Below, in pieces: positions 2,799-38,312 of a stretch of DNA of 45,077 nucleotides. Location of the stretch: positions 1 to 45,077 of the forward strand of contig CACYQI010000022.1 in NCBI GenBank assembly GCA_902776455.1. The letters run 5' to 3'. A program made the translations under genes and the position numbers. Under the pieces are notes generated by a model. That model saw only the letters and a list, made by a program, of their open reading frames with translations, made no database searches and was not told the DNA's origin. Numbering within the stretch: the first letter of the stretch is position 1; each line of letters opens with the position of its first letter. Source of the stretch: an uncultured Bacteroidales bacterium (GTDB lineage: Bacteria > Bacteroidota > Bacteroidia > Bacteroidales > Bacteroidaceae).

Positions 2799-3203
2799 TC
2801 CGCAGAGTTGGCCGTCCAGGAGGACTGGGGATTGAAGCTCCCGGGAGTGCTGAAGAGCGTGTAATACATTTGGAAATTAATGGGCAATTACATGGCAATT
2901 ATATGTTTAAGATAAAAGCGAATTACCATAAATGCCCCATGTTGACTTCGTCGAGCTAAAGCTTCCGCCTGCGCCTGAGGCTTGCCGAAGAATTACCATA
3001 AATTATATGTCCTTTAGTTTTCATCGAATTCACGTTATTTATTATTATTGGTGTCCGCTAAATAAGCACCTTCGGCACTCTTCTCCGGACTGCAATAAAA
3101 GGAAATATCTTTTCATGTGTTTTGGGATTACAAATCCCTATACTCCTTGCGGTCGGATTGCAAATCCGCCCGAACAGGAGCTTGAGCAGGGGCAAACGGC
3201 CCT
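2799..3203. other. gene-free stretch with fragments of dispersed repeats
   Basis: No convincing gene is seen. GAATTACCATAAAT occurs twice, at 2920-2933 and 2991-3004. A module with TAAATAAGCACC next to TTCG or GAA lies near 3058-3080 and recurs near 708-735 and 9098-9120. A partial REP-like palindrome lies at 3124-3175. Confidence 0.5.
3124..3175. repeat. REP-like palindromic element, solo copy
   Basis: GGGATT-ACA-AATCCC (3124-3138) is followed by CGGATT-GCA-AATCCG and CCCGAAC. The same order of palindromes flanks the RAYT gene at 30340-30390, so this is a solo copy of that repeat family about 26 kb from the transposase. Confidence 0.75.
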
Positions 3204-3300
3204 CTGTGGAGCGTGGCCAGTACTACCGTGGAGAAACTCCAGTACTACCACGGGAAAACTCCAGTACTACCACGGTGGTACTGGCTGCACTCCGCCGAGG
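3200..3300. repeat. 22-bp-period array A
   Basis: Cores CTGTGG (3204), CCGTGG (3226), CCACGG (3248), CCACGG (3270) and a degenerate CCGCCG (3292) are exactly 22 bp apart. Between the cores stands CCAGTACTA rather than the CATCGGC sequence of the other arrays. Period and core are therefore shared while the spacer differs. The array lies in the gap between the convergent nucleoside hydrolase and BspA genes. Confidence 0.75.
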
Positions 3301-3613
3301 CGTGATGTCCGCTCCATGAGGGAGGTCTGTTCTGGCCTGGGGAAGGAAACTCGCTTGCTAATGTCGCTCGTGCTCACGAAGAGAAGCCCTGCTACGCCCG
3401 TGTAGTTTGGTTCGATGGTCTGCCTGCTGCTGTCTGAAAGGTTCGGGGTCGCTAAAACAAGTTCGGGCGAACCATTTGGTCCGCCCGAGCGAGTTTCCCC
3501 TTTCCTTCACGGAAGAGAGGTTAGGAGTTTGAAGCTGTTACTTAATCACAACCTTGAGCTGCGCTCGAGCTCGTTCACGCTCGGTAAAGCATGAGCGAGC
3601 TCTTGCTTTACTC
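3301..3613. other. 3' flank of the BspA-like gene with hairpins, no gene
   Basis: An inverted repeat at 3463-3488 (arms TCGGGCGAACC and GGTCCGCCCGA, one mismatch, 4-base loop) is followed on the minus strand by ACTTGTTTTAG, so it may be the BspA-like gene's terminator. A second imperfect palindrome with GAGCGAGCTC and GAGCTCGTTC motifs lies at 3560-3605. No gene is seen. Confidence 0.45.
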
Positions 3614-4884
3614 TCACTTAATCACGACCTTTCTTCCGCCATTGATGTAGAGGCCGGGCTGTACGGGCTTGCCGGTGAGCTTGCGGCCGCTGAGGTCGAA
3701 CCAGCTGTCCTTAAAGTCCTTGGAGTCCCTAAGGTCCTTAAGGTCTTCCAGGCCTGTTATCAAGTCGTTGTCCTGACCTTCCTGCAGGAAGTTGATGTTG
3801 TCCACGAAGAAGCCGTCGCCTGGGGCGTCAACGCTGCCGTCCTTCGTGTATTCCCACTTGAAGGTGTGCATGCCTGCCTTGACGGGGAAGATGTAGCTGC
3901 CCCATACATCGCCGAGCGTACCGTAGCTGAACTGCTGTTCGCCGTCGATGTAGAAGATGCACTTGTCCCAGCCGCTGCCAGAGCCTTCGCCCATGCACTT
4001 CGCCATGAAGTAGATATAGCCGTTTGTGTCGAAGAGGTACATCGCCGAGATTGCGGACGAGGAGTTAGCCACGCCCTTGTTGCCGCTCCTCATGCTGAAG
4101 CTTCCGCTTTCGGCATCCTCGCCTGTGATGTCCCACGGATAGTCGCCTTCCGAGATGAAGGGAATTTGGTTCAGCTTGCCTGTCTCGAAGTCGGCCAGCG
4201 TTTCCTGAGTGGGCATGTCGTAGGGGTTGAGTTTATGGGCGGAGTGGTTGAAGGTTGCCCATTCGCTGTTGATCAGGCCATAGTCGGTGCTGGCGTTGGG
4301 CACAGTCCAAAGGAAGGCCCTGTTGGCCGTGATGCGCTTTGCCCAGAATGCCTTGTAGTTGGAACTGATGGTTGCGGGCAGTATGGGTGCATCTTTGCCG
4401 TAGCAGTTCACGCGCTTCAACTCGTAGAGTGATAATGAGGCGCGGCCGATGCTCTTCACACCTGAGCCGAGCGTCACCGTCTTGATGTGGTCGTCGGGAT
4501 GCTGGCCGTCCGACGTTCCTTCGCCTTCGTAGTAGAGGAAGTAGGGCTGTATCTCGACGTCCTTACCTGTGATGACAATCTCCTCTATCTCGCTGAGGAA
4601 GTCGATCCACTTGAAGCGATAGGCTGTTTCCGGGTCGTCGATATGGTCGGTCCTGGACGTCAGCGTAGGCATTGCGCCGTTGTAGTTCACGGTCAGCACG
4701 CCATCGACAAACGTCCAGTAGCCCTGTGTGCCCAGCGTGCCGCACTTCATCATCTCGTTTACGTCAAGGTCGGCCGCGATGTGGAAGCGGGTCGTTGCCG
4801 GGTTGGCAGCATAGTAGTAGCCGTCCGAGGTCTTCAGAATATGCAGCGTGGCATTGTTCTTGGCGGCTGCATCGAGGTCAACGA
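3614..4884 (-). pseudogene. C-terminal part of the frameshifted BspA-like protein
   Basis: This frame continues the BspA-like protein after a one-base frameshift near 4876-4890. It holds another GYWTFVDGVLTV unit, more leucine-rich-repeat-like segments, a probable jelly-roll domain (from FETGKLNQ to VDNINFLQ) and a tail WFDLSGRKL...GLYINGGRKVVIK. That tail resembles the C-terminal sorting segments of secreted Bacteroidetes proteins and recurs in two other genes here. A linker LEDLKDLRDSKDFKD just before the tail is encoded by five 9-bp repeats (3707-3751). It has no start codon of its own that makes sense; it is part of the gene starting at 8436. Confidence 0.75.
3707..3751 (-). repeat. coding 9-bp tandem repeat (5 units)
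   Basis: Five 9-bp units of the type GTCCTTAAG (plus strand) encode LED-LKD-LRD-SKD-FKD, an acidic/basic linker before the C-terminal tail. Similar 9-bp-period arrays lie at 10355-10453, 13071-13142 and 19252-19341, also at gene ends. Confidence 0.8.
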
Positions 4885-7800
4885 GAGCGACTTCTTGCCG
4901 ACGGACTTGAGGAAGCGTCCCAGCGTGACGGTCTCCACGCCTGCCGATGCGTCGGCGAAGTATTTGCCGCCGAAGAAGTTGTCGGGGATGGACTTCACGT
5001 TGTCCGTGAAGATGACTTCCTTGATGAGGCTGACCCATGCATTGAAGGTCTCGCACCAGGGCTTGCCCTCTGAATCGGTGGCCGGGATGTCGCCGCTGAC
5101 GTCAACCACGAGCGTGCCGTCCGTGCCGAGATACCATGTGCCGTTCTGGCCAATCGAGCCGCCGGTGGGCAGAGCCGGCTCTACGATTTCATTATTGCTC
5201 TCTACAATCATGTCCTTCCAGATGTTGGCAGCCTTGTAGGCAGCGACGAAGTCGGGCGGAACGATGAGATGGATGTTGCTGAGCGTGAGGTCGTCGAATG
5301 GCCAGGCTTCCTCCCATTCCATACCCACTTCACCGACATTCTTACCCCTGTAGTCCATGGGCAGGGCAGGAGGTGTAGCGCGGTTGATGTAGATGTACCT
5401 GAGGCCTGTACAGCCTTCGAAGGAATCGTAGTTGATGCTCTCCAGCTTGCTGCCCAGCCTTACTGTTTCAAGAGCCGTGCAGCCGCGGAAGAAGCCGCTG
5501 GACAGACGTGTGGCGTTGGCCGTGACAGATTTCAGGCTGCTGCATCCTGAGAAGCATCCGCCGGCATTTTCAATGTCGGCACTGCTTATGTCGATTGTCG
5601 TCAGTTTGCTGCAAGCGATGAAGGCAGCGCCGCCAAGCTTGCAGACAGGACCCAACTTCGCTTCCACCAGGTTCTTGCATCGAGCGAAGGCTCCGTTCTG
5701 AATGTCCTCTGCGTTGGTAAGGTCGAGCGTCTCGAAGGCTGCATATTCGAAGGCGTATTCTCCGATGGTATCCACGTTCTCGATATTGATGCTCTTCAGC
5801 TTCGGGCATTCTCGGAAAGCGCGGTTGCCTATCTTCTTTATCGAGGGGCAGAGCTTCACGCTTTCCAGGTTCGGGAAGTCCTCGAAGCAGTACCCGGGCA
5901 CTTCGCCCAGGTTGCCCGAGAATTCAATCCTCTTGGTGAGCATGCAGGGGTCGGTGGGGATTTGGTCGTAGCCTATTCCGAAGTCGAGTTTTCCTGCTTC
6001 TGCGCCTGTCAGGCTTCTCCCGGCAGAGATGACCATCGTGCCGTCGTCGTAGAGTATCCAGCTGCCGTCGCCGAAGTAGCCGGCCTTCGTCCATGTGCCG
6101 CGGCCGTCGGCGTAGGAGATGTGGAACTTGTTCCAGCTCGGGTCCATCAAGTACCTCGTCACGTAGGCATCGGCTACAGACAGGTCGATGGAGGCTTGTC
6201 CGTCGCTCTTGATGCTGGAGAAGGAGTATCTGGTCGTCGTGGCAGGCGTGCTTGCACGGTTCTCGATGGTTTTCAGGCTTTGGCAGTTCTTGAAGACGTA
6301 GTTGCCCACAGTGGTCAGGTTCTTGCCCAACTGGATGACTTCCAGGTTTGTGCAGCCCTCGAAGACGTTGTTGCCGAGTGTCTCAACGACGGGGGTGTTG
6401 ATTGCTATCAGTTTGGGACAGTTCTTGAAGGCCTCGTCGTGTATCTCCCTGCAGTTCAACGAAATGCTCACGTTGCCCAGATTAGGCAACTCGGAGAAGG
6501 CGTTCTTGCCTATCGTTTGACTATTTCTGAGATGGATGTACTTGATGTGCTCGCGGTACGCATCCCAGGGCTGTTCCCTGTAGTAGCTGTAGTCGGGTAT
6601 CGACGAGCAGTTGATGCTCAGCGTGCCGGAAGAGGCGAGCGTCCATGTGCCGTCCCCGACGCTGCCGTTCACGGGGAAGGTGAACTCCTTGTCCACCTTC
6701 ATCTTGCCGAACACGGGATGGTTCTCGTAGTACTGTCTGTATAGCTCAGCCTCACAGTGAAGCGTGACGTCGGAGAGCCTGTAGTCGCTGAAGATGTCGG
6801 ACGGGAAGCCGTATTTGATTGGCTCCGAGACGAAGACGTCGGTCAGGTCTGGGCAGCTGGCGAAGCAATGCGAGCCGAAATTGCAATTCATGGTTGAGCC
6901 ACCGAACGACAGTTTCACGATGTCACTGCTGGCGAAGGCATAGTCACCGACGGATTTTACATTGCTGAGGTCGAATTCCTGTATGCCGCTCATCCTGAAA
7001 GCGTTGGAGCCGATGACTTTAACCCACGAGAAGTCGAGATCGCCAAATAGATTCTGGCAGTTTTCGAAGGCGCTTTCGGGAATGTAATTTGCATTGAAGT
7101 GACCAAATTGATCATCAAGAGTGAGACTTCTACAGTTCTCGAAGGCATGGGAGCCAAGACTGTTTATATTCATTCCGAAGAGGAAGCTGAGGTTTGTACA
7201 GTCCAGGAAAGCTTTATCGCCTATTGTAACGTTCATGTTTTCATTCGCCCCATTCATAAATACATCCCAGTCATATATAGCCCCAAGCTCTTCACAGGAT
7301 AGGAATGCTTCTCTACCAATAACCAATCGATCTATATTCTTTAAATATATAGAACATATGTTACGGAGGAGTCCGCTGTTGAAACAGTAATCGGGAATGG
7401 TGAACGTTATGTCAGACTTATTACCGACGTATTCTATTATCATGTCATTCACGTAGTCGAGTACAGACTTCCATGGAGCGGCATCGCCCAAGACGTGCAA
7501 GAAAGGTGACGAATCAGTCACAGGTATGGGCTTTTCGAAGGCAGGCATCTTGTCAGTAGTCAGAACCACTCGCAGATAATTATCTTCATCTACATACCAG
7601 CCGCCGACAAGTTTGCCGTCGTCATAAATAGGTCCGCCTGGATAGATACGGCCAGTCTGACCTTTGTCCCTATTTTTACCACCACTATCATCAAGGTAAT
7701 AGCAACACATATAGCCCTTCTCTACTTCAGGGTGCTTTTTGGGATAGTAGTTGATGTAGGTATTAAGATACTCATTAGGCACAATGACAATCGAGTTTTG

Positions 7801-8436: not shown

Positions 8437-8478
8437 AGTTTTTTTTTTTTTTAATATTTTTTTCATGTTTTGCCGCTA

Positions 8479-8486
8479 CAAAGTTA
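8479..8486 (-). promoter_or_regulatory. -7 box of the BspA-like gene
   Basis: TAACTTTG on the minus strand matches TAnnTTTG. No clear TTTG stands 20 bases upstream. It is about 43 bases before the preferred ATG at 8436. Confidence 0.5.
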
Positions 8487-8523
8487 TGTTTTATTTCGCA
8501 AAGATTAATAATGTTTCTTAATC

Positions 8524-8558
8524 AAATTTCGGTATAATTTTAAGTTGTACCGAAATTT
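8524..8558. promoter_or_regulatory. perfect 11-bp inverted repeat upstream of the BspA-like gene
   Basis: Arms AAATTTCGGTA (8524-8534) and TACCGAAATTT (8548-8558) are perfect, with a 13-base A+T-rich centre. The site lies 38-80 bases upstream of the -7 box, where an activator or repressor could bind. No T tract follows, so a terminator is less likely. Confidence 0.55.
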
Positions 8559-8751
8559 TACTATTTTGATGTTTTTCATCAATTATTGATCTTTTTGTGC
8601 ATAACGAAATGATAAATCTCTGAACGAAATGAGCACTTAGAGCTGAAATTCGAGGCGAGAGGCTGTTTCCTTTGCCCTCTCAGGCGGCAAAGCACGGAGG
8701 TCAAATCCGCCAGGACTGGTTGAAGTCTCGGCAGTTCCGAAAAACGGCCTT

Positions 8752-9058
8752 GCAGGCCATCTCTGGCATCATTTTCGACATTCCACGCAGCGAGGCGGAA
8801 CAAAGCACGGAGAATAAGCCGACACAACGTGCAGTATCGCCCAACTCTCAACGCAGAATCCAGCTGAAATGAAAAACACTCGTCACTCGTCACCTTTGCC
8901 CCTAACAGAGTGAAAATGAGTCAATAACAGGGTGACGATACCGTCACCCACTCGTCACCCACTCATCACCTCGCATCCATCTGAATCACAATACAATAAG
9001 AGGGAAGGTGACGAGGTGACAGTAATAATTCTACGGAGCCAAGGAGTCAAGGGAGAAA
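8752..9058 (+). repeat. dispersed ~300-bp repeat, copy 2
   Basis: This is the second direct copy of the repeat at 401-705, with the same GGTGACGAG-type motifs. The minus-strand frame shared with copy 1 can be read here for about 104 codons from a GTG near 8893, but its 3' half has no counterpart in copy 1. I do not call a gene. The flanking 8560-8750 shows no gene. Confidence 0.85.
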
Positions 9059-9060
9059 AG

Positions 9061-9248: not shown

Positions 9249-9293
9249 CTTTTGAGCATCAATTGAGGTGCGCATGCTTTTCCCCGGACACCA

Positions 9294-9338: not shown

Positions 9339-9420
9339 GCTTTCTCATTACGAGAACGAAACATTATGTATGCTTGAATATGTATTCTGTGTTCTTCGCG
9401 CTTGCGCTCGGCGAAGCAAT

Positions 9421-9441: not shown

Positions 9442-9453
9442 TGTTCTTCGCGC

Positions 9454-10260: not shown

Positions 10261-10288
10261 AAAGCGTTGTTTTTATGGTTTTCTTGTG

Positions 10289-10354: not shown

Positions 10355-10453
10355 ATGGGGCCTATAGGTCTTATAGGACTTATGTGACTTATAGGACATA
10401 TAGGTCTTATAGGACTTATGGGTCATATAGGACTTATAAGGCTTATGGGCATT
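10355..10453. repeat. 9-bp-period minisatellite across the mscS-family stop codon
   Basis: Eleven 9-bp units of the form ATAGGACTT / ATAGGTCTT / ATGGGTCAT run without a break in period. The last units overlap the end of the MscS-family gene, whose stop is at 10443-10445. Confidence 0.85.
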
Positions 10454-13070
10454 GCCTGAGGTGGACGTCGCGCTGGGGGAAGGGTATCTCGATGTTGTTT
10501 TTGTTCAAGGTGTTGTAGATGGCTTCCTTGATGCGTGCGGTGAGGAGAATCTTTTGTTCGACGAGCATCCATACGCCAACGAAGAGGTCCACGCTGCTGT
10601 CGCCGAAGTCGGCAAAGGAGACGCTGACGGGGATGCTGGTGTCGGCGAGCGGCTGTCCGTCGGCCGTCTGTTCGTGGCAGATGGGCGTGATAGCCTCGAT
10701 GAGCAGCTGTCGCACTTGCTCCACGTCGGTGCCGTAGGCGACTCCCACGGGCACCTTGATCAGTTCATAGCGATGGTTGCGCGTCATGTTCTTGAAGTTC
10801 TTGCTGAAGAGGGCGCTGTTGAGGAAGGCGATGACGCTGCCGTCGGCCGTGGTGATCTGGGTGCTCTGGTAGGTGATGCTCTCCACCTTGCCTGCAATGC
10901 CGTCGCACTCGATGTAGTCGCCCACGTGGATGCGTCCTGTCATGAGGCTGATGCCGTAGAAGAAGTTTTCCAGTATGCTTTGCATGGCAAAGCCGAGGCC
11001 TGTGGCAAGGCCTGCGCCGACGATGCTGATGCCGTCCTTCGGCACTTGGAAGATGACGAGCACGATGATGGCGTAGAGTCCCCAGCAGACGATGCCGAAG
11101 ACGTTGCGGGCCAAGGTTTTGTTGATGGCCTGGCTGTCGTCGGCATACTGCTTGCGATAGTGCAGGTAGAAGCTTCGCAGGGCGTAGTTGACGTAGCGGA
11201 AGATGAAGAAGAGTGCTGCCGCTAAGCATATCAGCGAGAGCGAGATGCGGATGATGTTTGTCTTGTTGACGATGTCGCGCATGAAGATTTTCTTGCAGAG
11301 GCTCGTCATCTCGAACACCTCGGCTGCCCAGTAGATGCTCACCAGGATGGAGAGCACGGCCAGGATGGGCACGATGGTGCGGCAGAAGAGGTCGTACATC
11401 CAAGTCTGATCAATGAACTCTCCCCGCTTCATGCGAACGAGCAGGGCTTTGCGCTCGCTCTTGTCGGAGACGTCGGGTGCAAGACGCTTCAGCAGATACT
11501 GTGCCTCGTACTTCTTCGTGAGGTCGTAGATGAAGGTGATGGTCATAATGGCGGCGAGCTGGAACGTCCACCATATCATCACCTGCACAGCCAGCAATGT
11601 GTAGCCCACCCAAGCGGCCAGGCAGGAGAAGAACACGGCGATGGTGGTGACGTGCGTATAGATTTTGTCGAGCATCGGCAGATACTTCTTGTGATGCTTC
11701 ACGACGAGGTATTGCCAGATGGCAAAGACGAGCAGGATGGGCGGGAAGATGAGGTTGACCAGTTGGTTGGGTATGAGCACGATGCGGAACAGTATGACGA
11801 TGAAGGCCAGTATCATCAATGGCGTGTAGATGATGGCGGCGTGCCGCATCTGACCGCTTGTGAGGCGGACATAGAGGCTCAGGAAGATGGCTTCGAGCAG
11901 CCAGGCGATGTTGATGATGAGTCCCGTGCCCATCTGTATGAAGTTGCGCTCGACGCTCGCCCTTACCACCATCACGATGATGGCAAAGAGGGCGATGCCC
12001 ACCACGTTGTTGAGCATCATCCTCCTCTCCTTGAAGTCCGGCCCGCGCCACTTCTTGGGCAAGAGCCATCGCAACACGATATAGCTGATGCCGAGCGAGA
12101 GGGCAAGGTAAAAGACAAGGAAGATGCTGATGAAGAGGACCGTTGCTCCTCGCCATTCGGAATAGAGCCGCTCGTGTCCCTCGAAGGGCTTGTATTTCAT
12201 GTCGATGGTCGATTTCACCATCATCAACTGCATGGGCAGGGAGGCGAGGATGCGGAAGTAGTTGGCGCTGCCGTTGCGGAAGATGTTCTCCTGCAGCAGC
12301 CGGTAGCGGCTCTGAGCGTATTCGTCGAGTTCCTTCACCTTCTCCCGTACGCTCTGGTAGTAGGCGTTCTCCGCTTCGATGGCTTCCAGGAAGTGCTGCA
12401 TGTTGCTGCGTATCGTGTCGGCATACAGCAGGCAGGCGTTGCGGTCCAGCTGTTGCTCTCTGGTCAGGAAGAGCGGTTCCATGCCCAGCTCCTCTTCTTC
12501 GGGAACCTTGTCGGTAGCCTTCTCAATCATCTCCACTGCGTCCTTGTCCATCGAATGTCGGCTGGCGAGGAGCGAGTCCTTCTTGGCAGCCAGCGAGTCG
12601 ATGGCCTGGAAGAGGATGCTGTCGCTGCTGCTGAGTGTGCTGTCGGCATCGATGATGGGCGGCATGCGCTTGAGCGAGCGGATGAGGTAGTCGGTGCGCT
12701 CTATCTCCTGCTTCAGGCGGACGATGAACTTGTCGTACTGCCGCATCTTGCTGTTGCGGTTGTCGAGGTCGCGCCGAAGGTTGGCGGCCTGCTGGCAAGC
12801 ATACGCCATGTCGAAGGTGTTGTCGGTGGACTGCGAGTAGAGCATCAGCCCAATCTGTTCGCACTGGTGCATGTACCAGACCAGCTGCTTGTGCTGCTGC
12901 ATGCCTTGTTGTTCGTAGTTTTGCATGAGGGCTTGCTGCATCTCGTAGTTCGTCTGCAGCTCGGCTTTGAGCACGCCAAGGGTGCGTGCCAAGTCTTTCT
13001 CCTTGAGCACGCCATGGGCAGAAGTGAAGAAGAGGAGCAGCACAGCTGCAAGGGAGAGGAACTTTTTCAT
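10443..13070 (-). CDS. MscS-family mechanosensitive channel, large type
   Basis: The product (875 residues from the ATG at 13070) is an inner-membrane mechanosensitive channel of the MscS/MscK-like class, which releases solutes on hypo-osmotic shock. A signal peptide MKKFLSLAAVLLLFFTSAHG precedes a long, partly helical periplasmic region (about 20-290) and then some eight or more hydrophobic segments. The conserved pore and beta region reads GAGLATGLGFAMQSILENFFYGI, then HVGDYIECDGIAGKVESITYQSTQI and TADGSVIAFLN. An upstream ATG (13172) would add 34 residues encoded by 9-bp repeats (ISPISLISPI); the signal peptide at 13070 makes that start unlikely. No promoter box was identified, and array B lies upstream. 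Confidence 0.9.
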   Translation of the reverse strand: MKKFLSLAAVLLLFFTSAHGVLKEKDLARTLGVLKAELQTNYEMQQALMQNYEQQGMQQHKQLVWYMHQCEQIGLMLYSQSTDNTFDMAYACQQAANLRRDLDNRNSKMRQYDKFIVRLKQEIERTDYLIRSLKRMPPIIDADSTLSSSDSILFQAIDSLAAKKDSLLASRHSMDKDAVEMIEKATDKVPEEEELGMEPLFLTREQQLDRNACLLYADTIRSNMQHFLEAIEAENAYYQSVREKVKELDEYAQSRYRLLQENIFRNGSANYFRILASLPMQLMMVKSTIDMKYKPFEGHERLYSEWRGATVLFISIFLVFYLALSLGISYIVLRWLLPKKWRGPDFKERRMMLNNVVGIALFAIIVMVVRASVERNFIQMGTGLIINIAWLLEAIFLSLYVRLTSGQMRHAAIIYTPLMILAFIVILFRIVLIPNQLVNLIFPPILLVFAIWQYLVVKHHKKYLPMLDKIYTHVTTIAVFFSCLAAWVGYTLLAVQVMIWWTFQLAAIMTITFIYDLTKKYEAQYLLKRLAPDVSDKSERKALLVRMKRGEFIDQTWMYDLFCRTIVPILAVLSILVSIYWAAEVFEMTSLCKKIFMRDIVNKTNIIRISLSLICLAAALFFIFRYVNYALRSFYLHYRKQYADDSQAINKTLARNVFGIVCWGLYAIIVLVIFQVPKDGISIVGAGLATGLGFAMQSILENFFYGISLMTGRIHVGDYIECDGIAGKVESITYQSTQITTADGSVIAFLNSALFSKNFKNMTRNHRYELIKVPVGVAYGTDVEQVRQLLIEAITPICHEQTADGQPLADTSIPVSVSFADFGDSSVDLFVGVWMLVEQKILLTARIKEAIYNTLNKNNIEIPFPQRDVHLRQCP

Positions 13071-13142
13071 GGGGATAATGAGGCTAATAGGGCTAATGGG
13101 GCTAATGAGGCTAATGGGGCTAATGAGGCCGATAGAGGCAAT
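13071..13142 (-). repeat. 9-bp-period minisatellite forming the mscS-family 5' leader
   Basis: Eight 9-bp units (GGGGCTAAT/GAGGCTAAT on the plus strand) end exactly at the start codon, so the mRNA leader consists of ATTAGCCCC-type repeats up to the ATG. The units keep frame with the gene and contain no stop. Confidence 0.85.
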
Positions 13143-13149: not shown

Positions 13150-13263
13150 TCCTCTACGGAGCATGGGTTCACACTCCGTGGAGTATCGGCTTACACTCCG
13201 TGGAGCATCGGCTTACACTCCGTGGAGCGTAGGCTCACACTCCACGGAGCGTCGGCCCTATCG
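13150..13263. repeat. 22-bp-period array B
   Basis: Cores CTACGG (13154), CCGTGG (13176, 13198, 13220) and CCACGG (13242) are exactly 22 bp apart, with (T/G)ATCGGCTTACACT-type sequence between. The array lies between the GH31 stop codon and the MscS-family gene, both on the minus strand. Confidence 0.9.
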
Positions 13264-19056: not shown

Positions 19057-19160
19057 GCACAGGGTATCGGTTCACGCTCCACGTTGCATCGGCCTACGCT
19101 CCACGGAGCATCGGCTTACGCTCCACGGAGCATCGGCCTACGCTCCACGTTGTGTAAACC
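19057..19160. repeat. 22-bp-period array C
   Basis: Cores CCACGT (19079), CCACGG (19101), CCACGG (19123) and CCACGT (19145) are exactly 22 bp apart with CATCGGC(C/T)TACGCT between; a degenerate unit may precede. The array lies upstream of the DUF4965 promoter and downstream of the RND transporter gene. The stretch 19161-19250 shows no gene. Confidence 0.9.
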
Positions 19161-19251
19161 CCTCCCTCAGCAGGGACGAAAAAAAGGGGCGCTGGTCAAA
19201 GCCAACGCCCTTGTGGGGGGAGGGTTCCCGAAAAGCCCCGGGCAGCCCGAT

Positions 19252-19341
19252 GATCTGAGTCTTCTGAATGCTCTGAGTACTCTGAAAACTCCGATTACTC
19301 CGAGTTCTCTGAATACTCAGAGCACTCCGATTATTCCGATA
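19252..19341. repeat. 9-bp-period minisatellite across the RND transporter stop codon
   Basis: Ten 9-bp units of the form ACTCCGATT / TCTCTGAAT run from the intergenic region through the stop codon (19331-19333) into the last codons. The placement is the same as at the MscS-family stop. Confidence 0.85.
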
Positions 19342-22300
19342 CCTCTGCCTGCTTTGGTTGCTTCGGCTGTTTCTTCTTTGCTTCCTCTTCCGGAGTGCTG
19401 GGCGACAGCTTCCAATAGACTACGGGCAGCACCGTTACGACGAGGATGAGGGTGCCTATGCCGCCGGCCAGGATGATGATGCCTACGGGCATCCAGAACG
19501 AGGACTGGCTGAGTATCATGGGTATGACGCCGACGGCCGTGGTGGCGGTTGTCAGGAAGATGGGCACCATGCGACGACGTCCGGCATCAAAGGCGGCGTC
19601 GTGAACCGACATGCCTTCACGTATCTTCTGGTCGGCATGCTCGAAGATGAGAATCTCGTTGCGCATGATGATACCCATGAGCGTGATGAAACCGAAGATG
19701 CTGGTCAGGCCGATGGTAATGTTGGCGATGCCCAGACCTATCATGGCTCCCGGCAGACTGAGCAGGATGGCTATCATGCAGAGGGCTGTCAGACCGAAGC
19801 GCCTGAAGTTGAAGAGCAGGAAGAAGAAAATGATGACCAGCGCAATGGCAAGGCCCGCAATGACGTCGGGCACGGTCTCCAGGTTCTGTTCCGGCTCGCC
19901 GCCAATCTGGGTGCGCACGCCGAAGGGCAACGGGAAGTCGTTGTCCAGAATGTCCTTTATCTGGCTCTGCACTTTGGCTGCCAGTACGCCGCGCTTGCCT
20001 TCGGCAGTCACCGTCACGCAACGCTCGCCGCCACGGTGCATTATCTTGCTGGGCATCCAGCGCGTCTCCACGCTTGCCACCTGTCGGAGAGGAATGCTGC
20101 TGAGGGGTTGCGACAAAGGCGTGATGTAGAGATTCTCCATGTCGCTCACCTGCATTTGCTCAGCTTGTCTGTCGCGCAGAACGATGGGCACCTCGTAGTT
20201 CCCCTCCCAGACGGTACCGATAGGCGTCTTGCCTGTCTGCATGGTAAGCTGTAGCTGGGTTGTCGTGCGGGTAACGCCAAGCTGTGCCGCTGTGACGGGG
20301 TCGAGCGTGACATCAACGATGGGCGACGGCTGGTCGTAGTCGGTATGCACCCACTCCAACTCGGGAATCTGGCGCATGCGCTCCATCAGTCGCTCCGCAG
20401 CCAACTGGATGCTGTCCAAGTCGGTGCCGTAGAAGCGGTATTCGTATGTAGGTACGGGCAGGTAGTCCATCTGCTTGAAGCGGACGTAAGCACCGGGCCA
20501 GAGGTTGCTCAGGCGGGGAGCATACTCGTTGAGCACTTCGGCAGTGGCCTGAATGCTCTTCGTGTTGACAATGAGCTGCGCAAAGTTCTTGCCTCCCAGC
20601 TGCGGCTCATACGTCACTTGGAAACGCGGCGAGCTGCAACCCATGAAGGTGGTGACGCTCGTGACGCGCTCGTCCTTCGAGAGCGAATCGCGCAGAGCCT
20701 CGGTGATGGCACGTGTCTCGTCCATTCCGGCACCTTCGGGCAGGAATACTTCGCAAGCGAACTGGTTGCGGTCGGCAAAGGGGAACTGGCGTATCTTAAG
20801 CGTGGGGAATATCAGCGCCGTCAGCACGACCAGCACGATGCTGCCGTAGATGGTAATCCACGGATGCTTGAACGTCCAACGGAGCGTCACTTCGTAGATG
20901 TCCTGCACCCAGTCGGTGATGCCTCGCTTGTCGGGATTCTTCTTCGGAGCCTTCTTGATGAGGCGCACGTTCAAGGCAGGGATGATGCATGCGGCCACGG
21001 CAAGGCTGACCATCAGACAGATGGTGATGGTGGCCGGGAAGTAGGTGATGACGTCGCGCGCTATGCCCCTCATAGTGAAGAGCACCGGGTAGAAGATGGC
21101 ACAAATGCAGACTGTTGCAAGCAGCATGGGCATGAAGTATTGCTTCACCGACTTGATGGCGGCGTCGCGACGGTCCATGCCGTTGCCAAGATACTCTAAG
21201 TAGCCGTCGATGACCACAATGCTGTTGTCCACTATCATGCCAAGCACGACGATGAGCGAAGCCAGCGTCACGATGTTCAGCGGAATGTCGAGCATGTACA
21301 TGATGCCTACGCTGATGAACGTGGAGATAGGGATGGTGATGGCTGCTACAATGGCGCTTCGCAGCGGGAAGAGTATCATCATGACCAGAATGATGACTGC
21401 CATCGACTCGAGCAGGTTGATGAGGAAGTCGTTGACGCTGGCCTCCACAACCTTCGGCTGGTCGGTGATGCGGAGCACCTCAACGTCGTCGGGCAGGTAC
21501 TCATTGCAGAAGGTGTTGATTACCTCGTTCACCTCCTTGCCGTAGTGTACGATGTTGTGGCCTTCGGTCATCTCGAGCGAAAGCAGTACGCAACGCTTTC
21601 CGCCCGATTCTATATAGCTGTCGCTCGTGTCGTATTCGCGTTTGACTTCGGCTATGTCACGCACTCGGACCACCTTTCCGCTGGCGTCGGAGTAGATGAT
21701 GTAGTCCATGATTTCCTGCTCCGAGTGGCGCGTGGTCTCCAAGTGCAGCGGTATGTTGGTAACGCCGGTGCTGACGCTGCCGCTCAGGGTAGTGAGGCCT
21801 TCGTTGGAAAGCGCGTTCAAGAGGGTGGATTGTCCGAGGCCGTAGGCTGTGAGACGCTCGCGGTTCACGTAGATGCTCAGCTGTTCTTTCTTGTTACCGA
21901 ACTGCTGCACGTTGCTCACACTCTTGATGCGGCGCAGGCGGTCTGCCAGTTCGTCGCTGTACTCCTGCAGTTCCCTGTAGGAACGGTCGTTGCTTTCCAG
22001 GGTGATGAGCAATGCCGAAGCCTGCCCGAAGTCGTCCATGACGAGGAGAGCAACCACGCCTTGCGGCAATTGCATCTTGAATTCTTTGACCCCATGCTTC
22101 ATCTTGTTCCAGACGGGCGCAAGGTCGCTCATGTCGTTGCTGAAGAAGACGCGGATGAAGCACATGCCGTTCTTGCTCTGCGTCGTCGTTTTGGCGCGGT
22201 CCACTTCCTTGTAGGTGAAGATGTATCGCTCGAGGGGACGTGCCACTTGCGCCTCTATCTCTTCGCATGTGGCGCCTGGCATGACGGCCACGATGGCACC

Positions 22301-24889: not shown

Positions 24890-24956
24890 GCTGTCTGTCA
24901 GGTAGTTAGATTCTTTCGCCGAGCCTCGTCTCCCCTTCCGCCGAGGAGGGCGGTTT

Positions 24957-25072
24957 TACGCTCCACGGAGCATCGGCTTACACTCCGTGGAGAATCGGCT
25001 CACACTCCACGGAGAATCGGCTCACACTCCACGGAGAATTGACCCACTCTCCACGGAGTATTTTTCCCTGCC
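24957..25072. repeat. 22-bp-period array D
   Basis: Cores at 24963, 24985, 25007, 25029 and 25051 (CCACGG, CCGTGG, then CCACGG three times) are exactly 22 bp apart, with (C/A)ATCGGCT(T/C)ACACT between. The left flank GAGGGCGGTTT is shared with array F. It lies 70 bases downstream of the AraC-family stop codon. Confidence 0.9.
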
Positions 25073-29593: not shown

Positions 29594-30133
29594 ATGTCAT
29601 TTGTGTTGACACGCGAGTTGTACTTCACTACGTCCACTGTCGTTGACTGGATGGATGTATTCACTCGTCCGCTGTACAAGCAAGTCGTGGTTAAATCTTT
29701 AGAGTATTGTCAGCTGCACAAAGGGCTTGATATTTATGCATGGGTGTTGATGACCAATCATTTGCACATGATTGTCGGAGTGAGAGGCACAGATTCAGTT
29801 GCTGATGTGCTCCGTGATTTCAAGAAGTTCACCAGCAAAGGCATTGTCAAAGCCATTCTGGAGAATCCTCAAGAGAGTAGGGTGAGTTGGTTGTTGGACA
29901 GATTTGAATTCCGTGCAGCTTATGACAAGAAGATAACAGGACACAAGTTTTGGCAGGATGACAATCATGTGGAACAAATCTATTCAGTTGACTTCTATCG
30001 GCAGAAACTTGAATACATACATCAGAACCCGGTAAGGCAAGAGTTCGTTTCAAGACCTGAAGACTATTTGTATAGTTCTGCTCGCAACTATGCAGGCATG
30101 AAAGGACTCTTGGATGTCATTGTGGTACGATAG
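29594..30133 (+). CDS. REP-associated tyrosine transposase (RAYT), IS200-like Y1 family
   Basis: The 179-residue product has the HUH motif (H56-L-H58 in MTNHLHMIV) and the RAYT block KLEYIHQNPVRQEFV...YLYSSARNY. Tyr141 is the candidate nucleophile. RAYTs are single-copy, domesticated-looking relatives of IS200/IS605 transposases that act on REP palindromes. It sits between two copies of a palindromic repeat (29439-29552 and 30299-30388), with a solo copy at 3124-3175, which is the expected substrate arrangement. Length and motifs look intact. No promoter box was identified. Confidence 0.92.
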   Translation: MSFVLTRELYFTTSTVVDWMDVFTRPLYKQVVVKSLEYCQLHKGLDIYAWVLMTNHLHMIVGVRGTDSVADVLRDFKKFTSKGIVKAILENPQESRVSWLLDRFEFRAAYDKKITGHKFWQDDNHVEQIYSVDFYRQKLEYIHQNPVRQEFVSRPEDYLYSSARNYAGMKGLLDVIVVR

Positions 30134-30298: not shown

Positions 30299-30390
30299 TG
30301 TGTCAGTATTTGTAATGCATTGAATCACAAACATATTATGGGATTACAAATCCCTCTACTCTATGCGGGCGGATTACAAATCCGCCCGAA
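30299..30390. repeat. REP-like palindromic repeat, right of the RAYT gene
   Basis: GGGATT-ACA-AATCCC (30340-30354) and CGGGCGGATT-ACA-AATCCGCCCG (30366-30388, perfect 10-bp arms) follow a segment homologous to 29465-29552. The stem sequence GGCGGATT is shared with the left copy. Confidence 0.88.
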
Positions 30391-30397
30391 CGGATTC

Positions 30398-30512
30398 ATA
30401 CAGCACGTTGCATCGGCTTATGCTCCACGTTGCATCGGCCTACGCTCCACGTTGCATTGGCCTACGCTCCACGTTGCATCGGCTCATGCTCCACGTTGTG
30501 TAGGGCCGTACC
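30398..30512. repeat. 22-bp-period array E
   Basis: Cores GCACGT (30403) and CCACGT (30425, 30447, 30469, 30491) are exactly 22 bp apart with TGCATCGGC-type sequence between. All units here carry ACGTTG instead of ACGGAG. It directly follows the right REP-like repeat. The rest of the gap to 30660 shows no gene. Confidence 0.9.
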
Positions 30513-30763: not shown

Positions 30764-33700
30764 ATGAAGAAACTGTTTACTTCAAGCGCTCTTTGGTCAT
30801 GCCTCTTTGCCCTGGCAATGATGATGACCTCTCAGAGCGCGTGGGCTGAGTACGTCAAGCTCACAGCACTGTCGGGTTCAAAAAGCCTAAGCGACGGTGA
30901 GGGTTGTGCCAAACTGGTCGATGCCGTGAGCACGACAAAGTGGGGCCAATCCTTCGACCCCTCTAACCCTGACCGTGCAAATGCCTGGGTTGTAGTGAAG
31001 GCCGAGAAGGCCGTAGTGCCCGACTGGTACTTCCTCCTCACCGGTAACGACACGGGCGGTGACCCCGGCCGCAACTGGAAGTCGTGGAACATCTACGGCG
31101 GCAACTTTGCCAGCGATGCCGAAGCAGTGCGCGGAAGCCTCGAAGATCCCGCAGCAGGCGGATGGACGCTTATCGACGAGCGCAACGGCGAGGCTCTCCC
31201 CCAAGCCAACTTTGCCAGTCAGAACTTCCAGTTCAACGAGGCAGACGGCACGACGGCCTATCAGTACTTCTGGATTGAAGTCCTCGAGTCTATCAAAGGC
31301 GCCGACACCTACCTGCAGATGAGCGAATGGGGCCTCGGCACCTATGGCGAGTTCGAGAAGTACCTCGATGACCTCGCCAACGTGCAGACAGGCACCGACG
31401 AGCCCATCGTCTACACCATCATCAGCGGTGACCGCAACGACGGTAGCGGCGAAGGCCTTGCCAAGCTTTTCGATGGCGACATCAGCACTAAGTGGGGTAA
31501 TGGCTTGACCGCCAAGAACTATGGTGAGACAACCAATGGTGCACACTTCATCATTAAGACTTCCCGTAAGATGGCTCCCACTTACTACAAGCTCGTGACA
31601 GGTAATGACAATGCCTCTTGGAAGCATCGTAACTGGAACACTTGGCAGATCTACGGCATTGCTAATGCCGACGTTCCTGCTGACGGCAAGCCGACCCGCA
31701 ACTCCGACAAGTGGGTGCTGCTCGACAAGAAGGACAACATCTCCGAGGATGTGCTGCCCGACAAGAACATGTTCACCGTCATGTTCGACCTCTCTGAGGA
31801 TGTCGCTGAGGAATACCAGTACTTCAAGGTCGAGATCGACCGCACCATGGCCGGCAGCGGCTACATGCAGATGGGCGAGTTCTCTTTGGGCGACCAATAT
31901 ACACTCGCTATCGACCGCAATGCCATCGTTGAAGCAGCCGAGGCTACCTACAGCCCCGACATCTTCGCAGAGAAGGCTTTGGTTGACCAGCTTGGTCAAG
32001 CCATCGAAGATACCAAGGTTTGCACCGATCCCTTCGCTCTGGGCAACCTGAACGCTACTATCGACGACCTGACTTCAAAGGTAGCTACTTCCGAGAGCCA
32101 ATATGCAGAGCTGATTACAGCTCGCAATCAGGCAATCAACCTCATCGGCGAGGATAACCTGAAACCTGCAGCCTTGGCATACGCAGAAAGTTGGATTAGC
32201 GAGACAGATGCCATCGCTCCCAGCGATGATTATCCCGTAGGTAACTTCGGCTACATCAAGGCCAACCGTCAGATTACCGGCCCCGAAGCTGTTGCCGAAG
32301 CAAAGCGCATCACCGAATACCTCGTAGCTAATGTCAAGGTAGAGGACGCTCCTATCTACGCTACATACGAAACCATCGTTGATGCAAACGGCTTTAACGA
32401 CGGTGAGATGGGTCACTCCCTCATCGACGGCGACAGGGAGAACACCAAGTGGTGCGCAAGCACTGACCACAAGCCCTGGCGCCTCATCTTCAAGAGCGAA
32501 GATCCCATCAAGCCTACATATTATGGTCTCGTAACAGGTGGTGACACCAACAGCTATCCCGACCGTAACTGGAAGTCTTGGAAGATTTGGGCTGCTAACT
32601 TCGACAGCGACGAAGAGGCTAAGAACGAAGAGTCCGACAAGTGGGTACTCATCGACGAGAAGAACAACGTCGGCACAGACATCCTCAAGACCACCAACAA
32701 GTACGAGAGCTACATCAACCTCTCCATCGGTTGTGCTAAGCCTTACCAGTACTTCAAGATTGTCGTTGAGGCTTCCGGCGGCAACCTCATTCAGATGAAC
32801 GAGTTCACCTTCTACAACCAGGGTAACCTCAAAGAATACCGCGAAGGTTTCTTGACTGAGTTTGATACTCCCGAGACCATTAAGGATTCTTATGTTGCTT
32901 ATAAGGGCTACATCGATGCCTACGAAGCAGCATACAATGTCCTCCTGGGTGCTGCCAATCCTCCCGACGTGATGAAGGCTTACAACGAACTGAAGGAAGC
33001 TCTGGAGAACCTCGATGAATCTGCTGCCCTTTATGAGGAATACCAGTTAGTTTATGAGGATGTGATGGGTCTCATCATCGATTCCGAGAGTCTGTCCGCT
33101 TGGCAGGCAGGTTACGGCAGTGAGAACGAAGGCCCTGGCAGCAAATACCTCCGCGGTACATACGAGTACATCACAACTAACCTTGCCCTCGACAATGAAG
33201 GCATCAAAGCAGAGACTGCTTACCTGAACAACATCTATGTGGCTTGCACAGAAGATATGTACATCTTGCTCGGCGGTCACACATCAGGAGAGTGGGGCGA
33301 CGGCTTCTATGGCCACCTCATCAACATCAACAAGAATGGCGAAAAGGAGGCAGGTAGCGATAACGGTGAAGTGAAGTGGGGCGGCGAGGCTGACGCCAAC
33401 GGCGACACCTACATCATCTTCCGTACGCTTGACAAGACCAACCCGTTCTTCTATACCTTGACTACAGGTAACGACACCCAAACATATACGGGTCGTAACT
33501 GGGGCACATGGTACATCTACGGCGCTAACTTCGAAGGCGACGGCGACGCTACCAAGGATGCCGAAGGTTGGGTTCTCATCGACTCTAAGGAGAACGTCGG
33601 TCAGGATCGTCTGCATCCCGTCAACAACCAGCCTTCTTACTTCGGCTTCAGCACCGAGACTACCGAGGAGTACATATATTATAAGGTAGTCGTAACGAAG

Positions 33701-35860: not shown

Positions 35861-35887
35861 TGTGATACACGCAGATAAACTCTCTTA

Positions 35888-35924
35888 ATTCTCTTGGCCA
35901 GGCCTCGTGCCTGGCCAAGAGAAT
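35888..35924 (+). terminator. perfect 16-bp hairpin after the large dockerin gene
   Basis: Arms ATTCTCTTGGCCAGGC and GCCTGGCCAAGAGAAT flank a 5-base loop. No real T tract follows, so it may be an incomplete terminator or a 3'-end-stabilising hairpin between the dockerin gene and the fasciclin gene 33 bases further on, for which no separate promoter is seen. Confidence 0.65.
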
Positions 35925-35957
35925 ATCTTAAATTAACACACTTAATATCTTACAACA

Positions 35958-38108
35958 ATGAGGAAGCTCATTCTTACACTTACCACCCTGCTCTTTATCA
36001 TCAGCTCTTGCAAGGAGGACATCGATACCTCTGCGCGCTATGTGTTCACAGAATATACGGTTGCCAGCTACCTTGAAGCACACGCTGAATACTCGCAGTA
36101 CGTGGAATTGACTAAGCAGGTGCCTGTGAGTATGAGAAGCAAGTCTTCCGTTTACCAGCTCCTAACGGCGCGTGGTAACTACACATGTTTCGCCCTGACC
36201 AACAAGGCCATCGACCAGTACCTGCAAGGTCTGGTGGAAGAGGGCTTGATAAGCGAACCCTCATGGGACGCTTTCACAGACGACAACAAGCGTGACTCTG
36301 TGCTTAAGGTGGTCGTGCTCAACACGGTCATCGACGGTGGTGACACAGAGGAACAGCGATACACAACCTCCCTCATCACTACATTTGGAAACGGAAAAGA
36401 GAATGCAGAGTTCCCTCTGCCCAACATATACGACCACAAGCTGACGGTCAGCACTAAGGCCAAGAACGACACTATCTTCCTCGACAAGGAGTGCCCGATG
36501 GACCCCATCAACTGCGATATACCTGCCATCAACGGCGTCCTGCACAAGTTGCACAAGGTCATTGCTCCCAAGGACGAGAGCTGTGCCCGCTATCTCCAGG
36601 TCATCCTCGACGAGAAGCGCGAGGGCTACCTGATGTTTGCCAAGGCTGTTCAGGCCTGCGGACTCCTCGACACGCTGAGCAAGGTGCGTGACGAAGTGTA
36701 CGAGACCCTCTACCAGACGGGCCAGATTCCCGACATGGACAACTACATGGACAAGGGCGGCTACGACATGACAAACATAGCGGGCGACCCGAATGCCTAT
36801 GCTCCTGAGCACCGCAAGTACGGCTTCACGCTCTTCTGCGAGACGGACGAATACTGGCAGTCGCAGGGCATCGACCCCGCCGCTTCAGGCGCTGTAGAGA
36901 AGTTGCAGGAGTGGATTGCATCGCACAACATGTATCTCAGCGACGGCGGCTATGCGGTCAACACCAACTACACCTCGCCCAAGAACATGCTCCACCAGTG
37001 GGTGGCCTATCACATCCTGCCCATGAGGATTCCTGCCAACAAGCTTGTCTATCATTGCAACGAGTTGGGCTACTCGCTCAGCTCACCAGGCAGATACACG
37101 CTGCCCGTCATGGAGTGGTATCCCGTCTATGGCGGCGACCGCCTGATTAAAATCTATGAGAGTGCCGAGAGCAACGGCATCTACCTCAACAGCTTCCCCG
37201 AGAGGAACAATGGCATCTTGGACGACGGCCACGAAGGCTACTGTGCGCCCGAAAAGCGCGGCATCCTCATCCAGACAAGCGGCCCGATGACTGTGACGAG
37301 CGACATCGTCAATGCCTGCATCTATCCCATCGACAAGCCGTTGGCCTATACCGACGTGACGCGCGACGACCTCGGCAAGGAGCGCATCCGCTTCGACCTC
37401 TTCTCCCTCTTCCCCGAGGCTATCACCAACGGCATCCGCCGTGCCGACAGTCCCCAGGGCAAGTGGCAGCACGTCTATATCCCGAAGAACTATCAGTACT
37501 TCGACAACATGAAGCTGATGAACCTGCAGACTGAGTTCATCCACTACAATGGCTACAAGGCTGCTTGGGCCAACTATTGCCAGGACGAGGACAAGGCCTT
37601 CGGGCAGTTCGACATCCGCTTCAAGCTCCCTCCCGTACCAGTCCGCAACACCTACGAGTTCCGCTACAAGCTCCTCGCCACGGCTGCTCGCGGCATTGTG
37701 CAGGTCTATTTCGGCAGCGACCCCGAGAAGCTTCCCGTGGCCGGCATTCCCATCAACATGACGTACAACGTGGAAAGGTTCTTTGGCGAAGGCGCATCAT
37801 GGGGAGACCTCTCGGACTCCGGCAAGGATGAAGACCAGATTATCGACATCGACCACAAGCTCCGCAACCACGGCCTGATGAAGGCTACGAAGCACGAGAC
37901 AGAGCTGAACTCCAGCACGGCCCGCTCCAAGAACAACTGCAGCCGCCAGATTATCGTGCGACAGACGCTCGACCCGAACGAGACCTACTACGTCCGCTTC
38001 AAGACCGTCCAGCCAGACCTTCAGCGCCCCGAACTCTATCTCGACTACTTCGAGTACTGTCCGAAGGAAATCTACGACAGCCCGGAGCGACCTGAAGACA
38101 TCTGGTAA
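35958..38108 (+). CDS. fasciclin (FAS1) domain lipoprotein
   Basis: The 716-residue product has a lipoprotein signal (lipobox ISSC, Cys18). An N-terminal FAS1-like domain (about 35-215) shows YSQYVELTKQV, SVYQLLTARGNYTCFALTNKAI and LKVVVLNTVIDGG. A second degenerate FAS1-like part spans about 220-470. The C-terminal third (about 500-710) is a beta-rich region without a recognised catalytic motif. Such lipoproteins in Bacteroidetes are usually surface-exposed adhesion or glycan-binding accessory proteins, often near SusC/SusD pairs; no such pair is present here. Its position 97 bases after the large dockerin gene suggests co-expression through the 16-bp hairpin. Confidence 0.8.
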   Translation: MRKLILTLTTLLFIISSCKEDIDTSARYVFTEYTVASYLEAHAEYSQYVELTKQVPVSMRSKSSVYQLLTARGNYTCFALTNKAIDQYLQGLVEEGLISEPSWDAFTDDNKRDSVLKVVVLNTVIDGGDTEEQRYTTSLITTFGNGKENAEFPLPNIYDHKLTVSTKAKNDTIFLDKECPMDPINCDIPAINGVLHKLHKVIAPKDESCARYLQVILDEKREGYLMFAKAVQACGLLDTLSKVRDEVYETLYQTGQIPDMDNYMDKGGYDMTNIAGDPNAYAPEHRKYGFTLFCETDEYWQSQGIDPAASGAVEKLQEWIASHNMYLSDGGYAVNTNYTSPKNMLHQWVAYHILPMRIPANKLVYHCNELGYSLSSPGRYTLPVMEWYPVYGGDRLIKIYESAESNGIYLNSFPERNNGILDDGHEGYCAPEKRGILIQTSGPMTVTSDIVNACIYPIDKPLAYTDVTRDDLGKERIRFDLFSLFPEAITNGIRRADSPQGKWQHVYIPKNYQYFDNMKLMNLQTEFIHYNGYKAAWANYCQDEDKAFGQFDIRFKLPPVPVRNTYEFRYKLLATAARGIVQVYFGSDPEKLPVAGIPINMTYNVERFFGEGASWGDLSDSGKDEDQIIDIDHKLRNHGLMKATKHETELNSSTARSKNNCSRQIIVRQTLDPNETYYVRFKTVQPDLQRPELYLDYFEYCPKEIYDSPERPEDIW

Positions 38109-38199
38109 AGCCTCTGTTTCAGCGAGTTCTTTCGTCTGCGAACAGCTTTGCAGCCCTCTTCCTTGAGGCTTGTCCCGATGAGTCGCAAGGAGGGCGGTT

Positions 38200-38312
38200 T
38201 CATGCTCCACGGAGCATCGGCTTACACTCCACGGAGCATCGGCCCACACTCCACGGAGCATCGGCCCACACTCCACGGAGTGTTGACCCATACTCCACGG
38301 AGCGTCAGACGA
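38200..38312. repeat. 22-bp-period array F
   Basis: CCACGG cores at 38207, 38229, 38251, 38273 and 38295 are exactly 22 bp apart, with CATCGGC(T/C)(T/C)ACACT between. It lies about 95 bases after the fasciclin stop codon. The left flank GAGGGCGGTTT matches array D. Confidence 0.9.

Follow-up and report, generated by a model that had tools for sequence, protein, structure and literature searches.

Contig CACYQI010000022.1 (45,077 nt) of an uncultured Bacteroidales bacterium (assembly GCA_902776455.1), the full length of which is referred to here as the window, carries between its genes tandem arrays of a 22-bp unit, and arrays with the same pitch and other unit sequences are found at gene ends in many related genomes, often in the same place. 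The constant unit length and often constant place of these arrays, combined with a near-complete change of their letters, suggest that the geometry of the DNA is read more than its sequence. On the reading that we prefer, they would be sequence-flexible DNA docking arrays in transcription-termination zones, similar to bacterial interspersed mosaic elements (BIMEs) and probably bound by a putative protein.

A preliminary description of the window had reported six intergenic arrays with a 22-bp period, and all six were recovered at the places given there, both by Tandem Repeats Finder (TRF; scores of 90, 128, 131, 140, 148, and 149, with a 22-bp unit and no linker) and by a scan, with zero mismatches, for chains of at least three CACG or CGTG cores in exact steps of 22 or 44 bp. 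The scan identified eight arrays in total, i.e., the six known ones and two more with axes at 8785-8829 and 43755-43843. The core had been described as of the CC(AC/GT)GG type; while CCACGG, CCGTGG, and CCACGT all occur, the core that is common to the arrays is the CACG within them. The unit of the main family consists of CTCC-RY-GGAG followed by NATCGGCYYACN. Array A, which had been singled out as unlike the others between its cores, does differ in sequence from the main family, and is explained as a second family that is built on CAGTACTACCACGG and is also present in the samples labelled L052, L053, and L066. The features of the window are as follows.

3218..3283, no strand: array A, with three phased CACG/CGTG cores of the second family, CAGTACTACCACGG[G/T]GAAACTC, and an inverted copy at its end
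8775..8840, no strand: degenerate phased array, three cores at 22 bp, absent from the preliminary description
13168..13255, no strand: array B, main family, cores mostly CTCCGTGGAG
19071..19158, no strand: array C, main family, cores CTCCACGGAG and CTCCACGTTG
24955..25064, no strand: array D, main family with five cores; on its left side, a GGCGGTTTTACG end motif
30395..30504, no strand: array E, main family with the non-palindromic core CTCCACGTTG, five phased CACG
38199..38308, no strand: array F, main family, five cores, 100 bp past a fasciclin-like gene and ahead of the V-ATPase operon
43745..43854, no strand: array of heterogeneous units in the convergent gap past V-ATPase B, absent from the preliminary description
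43753..43780, + strand: hairpin resembling an intrinsic terminator past V-ATPase B, GCGTGCCGTGT...CATGGCACGC TTTGTTT
43861..43886, - strand: inward-facing, terminator-like hairpin that belongs to the convergent gene 43991-45016 (coordinates counted by hand from the sequence)

The array at 43745..43854 is of a CACGTG...GTTTACC type common to many species and sits between the two hairpins; in the hairpin at 43753..43780, CGTG and CACG lie 22 bp apart, in phase with this array.

A 22-bp pitch shared by many unit sequences

In the assembly that includes the window (94 contigs, 3.39 Mb, 87% complete), the main unit pattern has 571 forward and 574 reverse matches at up to two mismatches, while the reversed-pattern control yielded 0 and 0. 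In 445 kb of this genome, which comprise 20 stretches picked with the list of pattern matches in view, so that array density there is biased, consecutive CTCC-type cores lie 22 bp apart 133 times and 44 bp apart twice, with no other distance below 120 bp; among the cores scanned, the spacing is fixed at 22 bp. Array counts by lag, from 15 to 40, gave 59 arrays at lag 22 and 13 at the runner-up, lag 18. Other 22-bp families coexist with the main family in this genome, including one near TTGCTCCTACATGTAGGAGCAA, itself a 22-bp palindrome, and TTTCTCACNNGTGAGAAATCAA.

The same pitch emerges when no repeat finding is used. Centre distances between intergenic CACG/CGTG motifs of 22, 44, and 66 bp occur 239, 168, and 116 times in relatives, where many other distances occur about 10 times, and 201, 147, and 91 times in the window genome. 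No peak at 22 was found in coding DNA, among distances of 15-30, or in outgroup intergenic DNA, a small sample of 49 kb with fewer CACG. Pairs of dissimilar sequence (at most 7 of 18 bases alike) give a less clear picture: they lie 22 bp apart 32 times in relatives, compared to 6 times each for 21 and 23 bp, with 17, 20, 24, 27, and 39 bp also high (24-39); in the window genome, such pairs were found 19 times at 22 bp, 0 times at 21 bp, twice at 23 bp, and 23 times at 29 bp.

The sequence of the main family is almost confined to the window genome and its 22-bp pitch is not. The exact sequence was matched in 9 of 61 genomes including the window genome, the other eight having 1-8 matches, and a looser core pair was matched in 12 of 139 genus genomes, with 402 matches in the window genome and 1-5 elsewhere. 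The possibility that the arrays are restricted to one strain, which the preliminary description had raised, thus nearly applies to the letters of the main family but not to 22-bp arrays, which occur in many other genomes. In 39 loci of relatives (707 kb; Bacteroidales metagenome-assembled genomes, largely from ruminant gut by title), 38 arrays were found at lag 22 (next lag, 7). Seventeen further genus genomes (306 kb) showed 11 arrays at lag 22, two of them repeats of a sampled genome, and 9 at lag 21 (L147 is the same genome as L103 and is excluded from later counts), and 20 genomes from other families in the order (273 kb) showed 1 array at lag 22. We interpret the counts at lag 21 (e.g., 19 and 9) as multiples of an AT-rich 7-bp repeat, as judged by eye on the TRF rows.

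A phased triple, CACG-N18-CACG-N18-CACG, was found in 115 of the 139 genus genomes, with at least 10 matches in 64 and at least 50 in 32; the total across these genomes was 6951, versus 2437 for a reversed control that is inflated by GCACG-bearing units. Outside the genus, the triple occurs in 34 of 295 genomes of the order and 37 of 296 of the phylum, the window genome being counted in both. Most of the matching genomes there have few matches, the exceptions being a sister genus and a few other families. Stretches around these exceptions, picked for their matches, again hold 22-bp arrays, none flagged inside genes. Selection by matches applies to the samples L089, L090, L148-L150, and L151-L170. 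L157, L158, L161, L162, and L170, from another family with genomes of ~2.2-2.4 Mb, carry 22-bp arrays of which some are free of CACG (e.g., TATTTCCGTATATACGGAAATT), so that pitch and CACG can be uncoupled. Clustering of 167 arrays at 17 or more identical bases of 22 yielded 63 sequence clusters from 35 source labels, which represent genomes or loci, such that two labels may share one genome. Across many genomes with unrelated unit sequences, a length of 22 is common and a length of 23 is rare.

Palindromic units at gene ends

Between families, the units show the symmetry of an imperfect palindrome. Sixteen cluster representatives have exactly one CACG or CGTG; they were anchored on this core and hence not selected for symmetry. 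In these, arm pairs 3, 4, 5, 6, 8, and 9 are complementary in 12, 12, 11, 10, 11, and 13 cases, respectively, compared to 4.1-7.1 expected (permutation p 0.0002 to 0.007); no clear excess over chance is seen for pairs 7, 10, and 11, and the central A-C, by construction, never pairs. Best-dyad scores for 142 arrays of 22 bp average 6.8 of 11 pairs, versus 5.6 for shuffled units (0.62 vs 0.51). A dyad centred on the spacer (0.54 vs 0.20) was rejected, as it mainly reflects terminator-type CGTG...CACG pairs and same-orientation neighbours reach only 0.37 vs 0.24-0.28.

The arrays are nearly all intergenic and biased to gene 3' ends. With a gene call based on codon usage, 1 of 71 arrays in the window genome and 1 of 97 in relatives fall in genes; a first call that used open reading frames of at least 100 amino acids had put 23 of 59 arrays inside such frames, most of which were judged spurious, and the codon-usage call put none of the 59 there. 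Among gaps of at least 150 bp in the window genome, arrays are present in 16 of the 24 that are convergent, 37 of the 80 that are tandem, and 7 of the 30 that are divergent, a significant divergent deficit (P 0.01); the corresponding numbers for relatives are 18 of 46, 46 of 228, and 13 of 91. The previously described position of 15-270 bases past a stop codon is typical, although it is not general, as the distance to the nearest stop codon in the genome sample has a median of 96 bp and a range of -61 to 611 (n=51).

In relatives, the 22-bp register often takes in transcription terminators, which were called by a home-made rule; in the window genome this is weaker. For 25 of 35 intergenic hairpins with inward CGTG...CACG in relatives, the two motifs are separated by 22 bp, with 4 of the other 10 at 18 bp (CACGTG overlap); the same separation holds for 10 of 11 in the window genome, where array-internal units are included. 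Of 224 distances from terminator loop to phased core in relatives, 112 equal 11 modulo 22 and none equals 0, and in 41 of 65 cases the closest phased core has a distance of 11 bp; in these relatives the terminator is therefore often itself an array unit. A terminator-like hairpin forms the first unit of an array 28 times and lies inside an array 13 times in relatives. In several species the array past V-ATPase B opens at a terminator-like hairpin, and it closes at the inward-facing hairpin of the next gene where that gene is convergent.

Sequence turnover at a kept position is best seen past the fasciclin-like gene, where 15 species including that of the window have a 22-bp array starting -2 to 116 bp from the matched gene end; the units there are unrelated between the window (array F) and the other species. 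One candidate for this slot, L039, was dropped since its array lies 1,759 bp further on, in another gap, giving a count of 15 rather than 16. L011, L018, L019, L025, and L031 have no array past this gene, and in these the next gene follows almost directly. The window and L030, its nearest relative in the slot comparison, are 95.2% identical over 4.2 kb of the V-ATPase region but share 9 of 22 unit bases, the level expected by chance. A unit family is shared in 3 of 8 species pairs that are at least 92% identical and in 0 of 97 pairs below this value (105 pairs; L047 was dropped as it had no sequence), or in 3 of 6 and 0 of 85, respectively, when L039 is left out. Conservation of the exact window-genome sequence in relatives was ruled out, with nearly no instances found. 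The proposal in the preliminary description that spacing is constrained more than sequence is, overall, supported across species by the lag counts, the CACG/CGTG distances, the 63 clusters, and the slot past the fasciclin-like gene. In L067, at 11596-11721, an array of the CAAACTATCCACG family turns into the CTCCACGG family mid-array with the 22-bp register kept, possibly a snapshot of replacement.

Other repeats and one small gene were also seen in the window. Arrays of 9-bp units (TATAGGACT; ATGGGGCTA; TCTGAATAC) at 10363-10446, 13069-13129, and 19250-19347, near 22-bp arrays, represent a second type of minisatellite. AT-rich 7-bp tandem repeats (AATTCAT/AATTATG) are located inside the V-ATPase operon at 39048-39225, 40072-40105, and 40489-40521; in relatives, 7 is the commonest TRF period (60 of 199 rows). 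Two short repeats, CACTCGT and, ~50-70 bp on, a GTCACCCACTC repeat, are present together twice, at 525-618 and 8877-8970, which suggests a duplicated or mobile segment. A small gene at 40106-40471, which we take to encode a four-helix 23S-intervening-type protein, is placed between DUF2764 and V-ATPase A in the window. L017 and L018 have it between A and B, and it had no match in the V-ATPase operon of many relatives; it is a moving passenger of this operon.

Candidate explanations

Of the two mechanisms in the preliminary description, we favour binding by a protein that reads about two helical turns. On this account, the arrays would act as double-stranded DNA elements in transcription-termination zones. 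The unit is a 22-bp imperfect palindrome, often CACG-centred, and 2 to ~10 units follow each other in strict register, which in relatives often starts at the terminator hairpin of the gene itself. Each unit may dock a DNA-binding protein that is dimeric and probably oligomerises. Two turns of DNA in vivo correspond to ~22 bp, and neighbours docked at this distance would lie on the same face of the DNA. The resulting protein filament or cluster could serve as an insulator that halts read-through, shields the next promoter or a convergent gene, or handles supercoils that meet. Because such a reader would depend less on the arms than on the 22-bp register and the centre, the arms would be free to drift or to be replaced, conceivably through whole-array exchange or unit conversion, with each species homogenising its own version. 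We assign a probability of roughly 0.42 to this account, i.e., a phased docking array for a putative DNA-binding protein that insulates gene ends. A broader claim, which we consider somewhat unlikely, is that of a genome-wide geometric code at transcription ends in some Bacteroidales, in which a platform with 22-bp steps would be read mainly via its register and palindrome centre by a putative oligomerising protein, and letters would be swapped genome-wide between sister species while place and pitch are kept, as a bacterial counterpart of satellite-library turnover in eukaryotes.

A number of observations weigh against the docking account. Intergenic CACG distances show smaller side peaks at 22 ±2 and ±5, with counts of up to 43; of the two, we ascribe only the ±2 peak to CACGTG. 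CACG or CGTG is present in 21 of the 63 cluster representatives (shuffles, 9.5), some array families (TATTTCCGTATATACGGAAATT, CCCTATAGGG) have no CACG, and the phased triple was not found in 24 of the 139 genus genomes. Arrays with other periods (n=106) also have dyad scores above those of their shuffles (0.51 of pairs vs 0.44), although by less than the 22-bp arrays do. Unit-level compensation was not seen in the arrays of relatives when same-orientation neighbouring units that differ on both arms were compared (arm complementarity 0.24-0.37, near background), and palindromy therefore holds between families rather than within arrays. In addition, variable palindromic arms should be superfluous for a protein that recognises a single core. 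The divergent-gap deficit is not significant in relatives (P 0.12), terminator phase is weak in the window genome (nearest core at 11 bp in 6 of 19 cases, with both 0 and 11 modulo 22 occurring), and the main family in that genome has more sense CACG than CGTG (20 vs 9, with 2 ties). Of the docking account as a whole, the period, register, palindromy between families, place, and turnover come from the data; the protein, its oligomer, the insulator role, and the exchange process are elements that we infer.

The main rival to the docking account, which we regard as unlikely, is a selfish or neutral satellite that is spread and homogenised by slippage, unequal exchange, and ectopic conversion, that survives past stop codons where it is harmless, that regains its palindromy through template switching at stalled forks, and whose 22 bp is inherited from one ancestral array and unselected. 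Consistent with a satellite, one family accounts for 41 of the 59 arrays sampled in the window genome and is absent from all other sampled genomes, L027 and L028, a close pair, differ past V-ATPase B by one entire 22-bp unit, the lack of unit-level compensation is as a satellite would have it, and the 3' bias can reflect purging. By contrast, the sharing of 22, and rarely 23, by unrelated sequences in many genomes, with lag-21 rows that look like 7-mer multiples, the same 22-bp register in terminator-type hairpins, and the retention of a slot while its letters are replaced all argue against it.

With regard to an RNA-level element, in which read-through transcripts would fold units or neighbour pairs into hairpins that serve as back-up terminators or 3' mRNA stabilisers, we consider this improbable, even though a terminator-like hairpin is often the first unit in relatives and the units show better folding than their shuffled tandem counterparts (mean z -0.98; 19 of 63 below -1.5 and 1 above 1.5); the latter carries little weight since any palindrome would fold so. 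If transcript folding were selected, G-U would be expected in place of A-C on the sense strand; the counts in tandem gaps are 67 vs 67 in relatives and 97 vs 91 in the window genome, in a test that is weak because the control, terminator hairpins, itself gave just 55 vs 42. The sense core in arrays of relatives shows no clear strand choice (CACG 16, CGTG 14), several arrays lie past a terminator, outside the expected transcript, and no match at gathering score was found in Rfam within the window. For the main family, perfect RNA hairpins were ruled out, since 83% of spacers have A-C at dyad pair 7 and just 12% are paired at pair 9. An RNA with CTCC and GGAG arms that pair between neighbours, as initially proposed, hence finds no support in the G-U and A-C counts, the mixed core strand in relatives, or the mismatched pairs 7 and 9. 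Given the G-U test, weak as it is, the mixed core strand in relatives, the folding expected of any palindrome, and the lack of an Rfam match, we lean to a function, if any, in double-stranded DNA.

The explanation that fares worst is a family of repetitive extragenic palindromes (REPs) or BIMEs, or a miniature inverted-repeat transposable element (MITE), moved by a transposase (REP-associated tyrosine transposase [RAYT] for REPs, IS5-type for MITEs like BrickBuilt), which we consider very improbable. The available portions of one source (PMC3733652) describe REPs and BIMEs as short extragenic palindromes, often clustered, found downstream of genes in convergent or unidirectional gaps, some of them species-specific, with REPs bearing GTAG or CGTC tags. 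As far as that source goes, the 22-bp units share this habitat, being extragenic, palindromic, of high copy number, and past gene ends, but differ in being arranged head-to-tail with no linker and in an exact 22-bp pitch that is common to unrelated sequences. A Y1_Tnp gene adjoins array E, which is also in line with a REP origin. The tags, however, are not enriched among the 63 cluster representatives (GTAG in 3, shuffled 9.25; CGTC in 6, shuffled 9.6), and no association between array richness and Y1_Tnp was seen across the 139 genus genomes (P 0.34). Among the 32 array-rich genomes, 17 lack a Y1_Tnp match, although such absences are soft as many of the genomes are incomplete. At the Y1_Tnp loci of the window genome (2.4-3.2 kb each), an array is present at 1 of 3. 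With tags not enriched and Y1_Tnp genes not tracking arrays, a RAYT or REP origin was rejected. Palindromes of the GGGATTACAAATCCC / GGCGGATTACAAATCCGCC type adjoin arrays A and E (window 3122-3180 and 30342-30390), and the strict motif occurs 7 or 8 times in the 445 kb of the window genome; these may be the true REPs that belong to the Y1_Tnp gene at 29594-30133.

The nearest described element of Bacteroidales known to us, judged from the available portions of its description, is BrickBuilt of Porphyromonas gingivalis, a 23-nt minisatellite MITE with 19 elements of one sequence, always intergenic, with a leader and a tail, terminal inverted repeats in many copies, and Rho-independent terminators or polyadenylation sites flanking 10 of 19 cases (PMC4596501). 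As far as these portions show, it resembles the present arrays in host order, dispersal, intergenic location, tandem units of near-equal size, and the company of terminators, whereas the present arrays have a 22-bp unit, hundreds of units, many sequences, and the same slot filled with other letters in sister species. A MITE was rejected, as no conserved leader or tail was found (conservation fades beyond ~16 bp at 74 ends of 37 elements with at least three cores) and there are no clear transposon ends; a TTTTAC-like end motif is present at 23 of the 74 ends, and matches of at least 7 bp that resemble target duplications occur in 10.8% of the 37 elements versus 3.8% of shuffled pairs. The same portions mention 22-nt tandem repeats in P. 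gingivalis W83 without locations (PMC4596501), and these may be kin of the present arrays.

Other systems offer more distant likenesses to the arrays. Plasmid iterons and the end sites of MuA and of TnsB of Tn7 are tandem sites of ~22 bp bound in register by one protein; they consist of few sites with a fixed sequence at one origin or element end, whereas the present arrays are genome-wide at gene ends. The stoperators of mycobacteriophage L5 are many dispersed intergenic repressor sites thought to block transcription; they are asymmetric single sites, oriented with transcription, in one phage, while the present arrays are palindromic, tandem, and without clear strand preference in relatives. 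A published description of the 22-bp array pattern was not found for Bacteroidetes, Bacteroidales, Prevotella, or Porphyromonas, or more broadly, in a literature collection with few subscription journals, and the available part of a P. gingivalis resequencing paper does not describe it (PMC5771137).

Meaning for Bacteroidales genomes

If the arrays are read by geometry, they would be a chromosomal element of a new kind, located at the gene ends of gut bacteria, and, to our knowledge, the first clear bacterial case in which place and pitch are kept while sequence is replaced. The arrays make the insulation of convergent and tandem transcription in Bacteroidales testable, and the dozens of species that carry them provide a natural series from which the rules of a DNA-binding protein could be deduced. 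Even if they are neutral, the arrays document concerted evolution of dispersed arrays inside one genome, which, as far as we know, has seldom been described in bacteria at such a scale.

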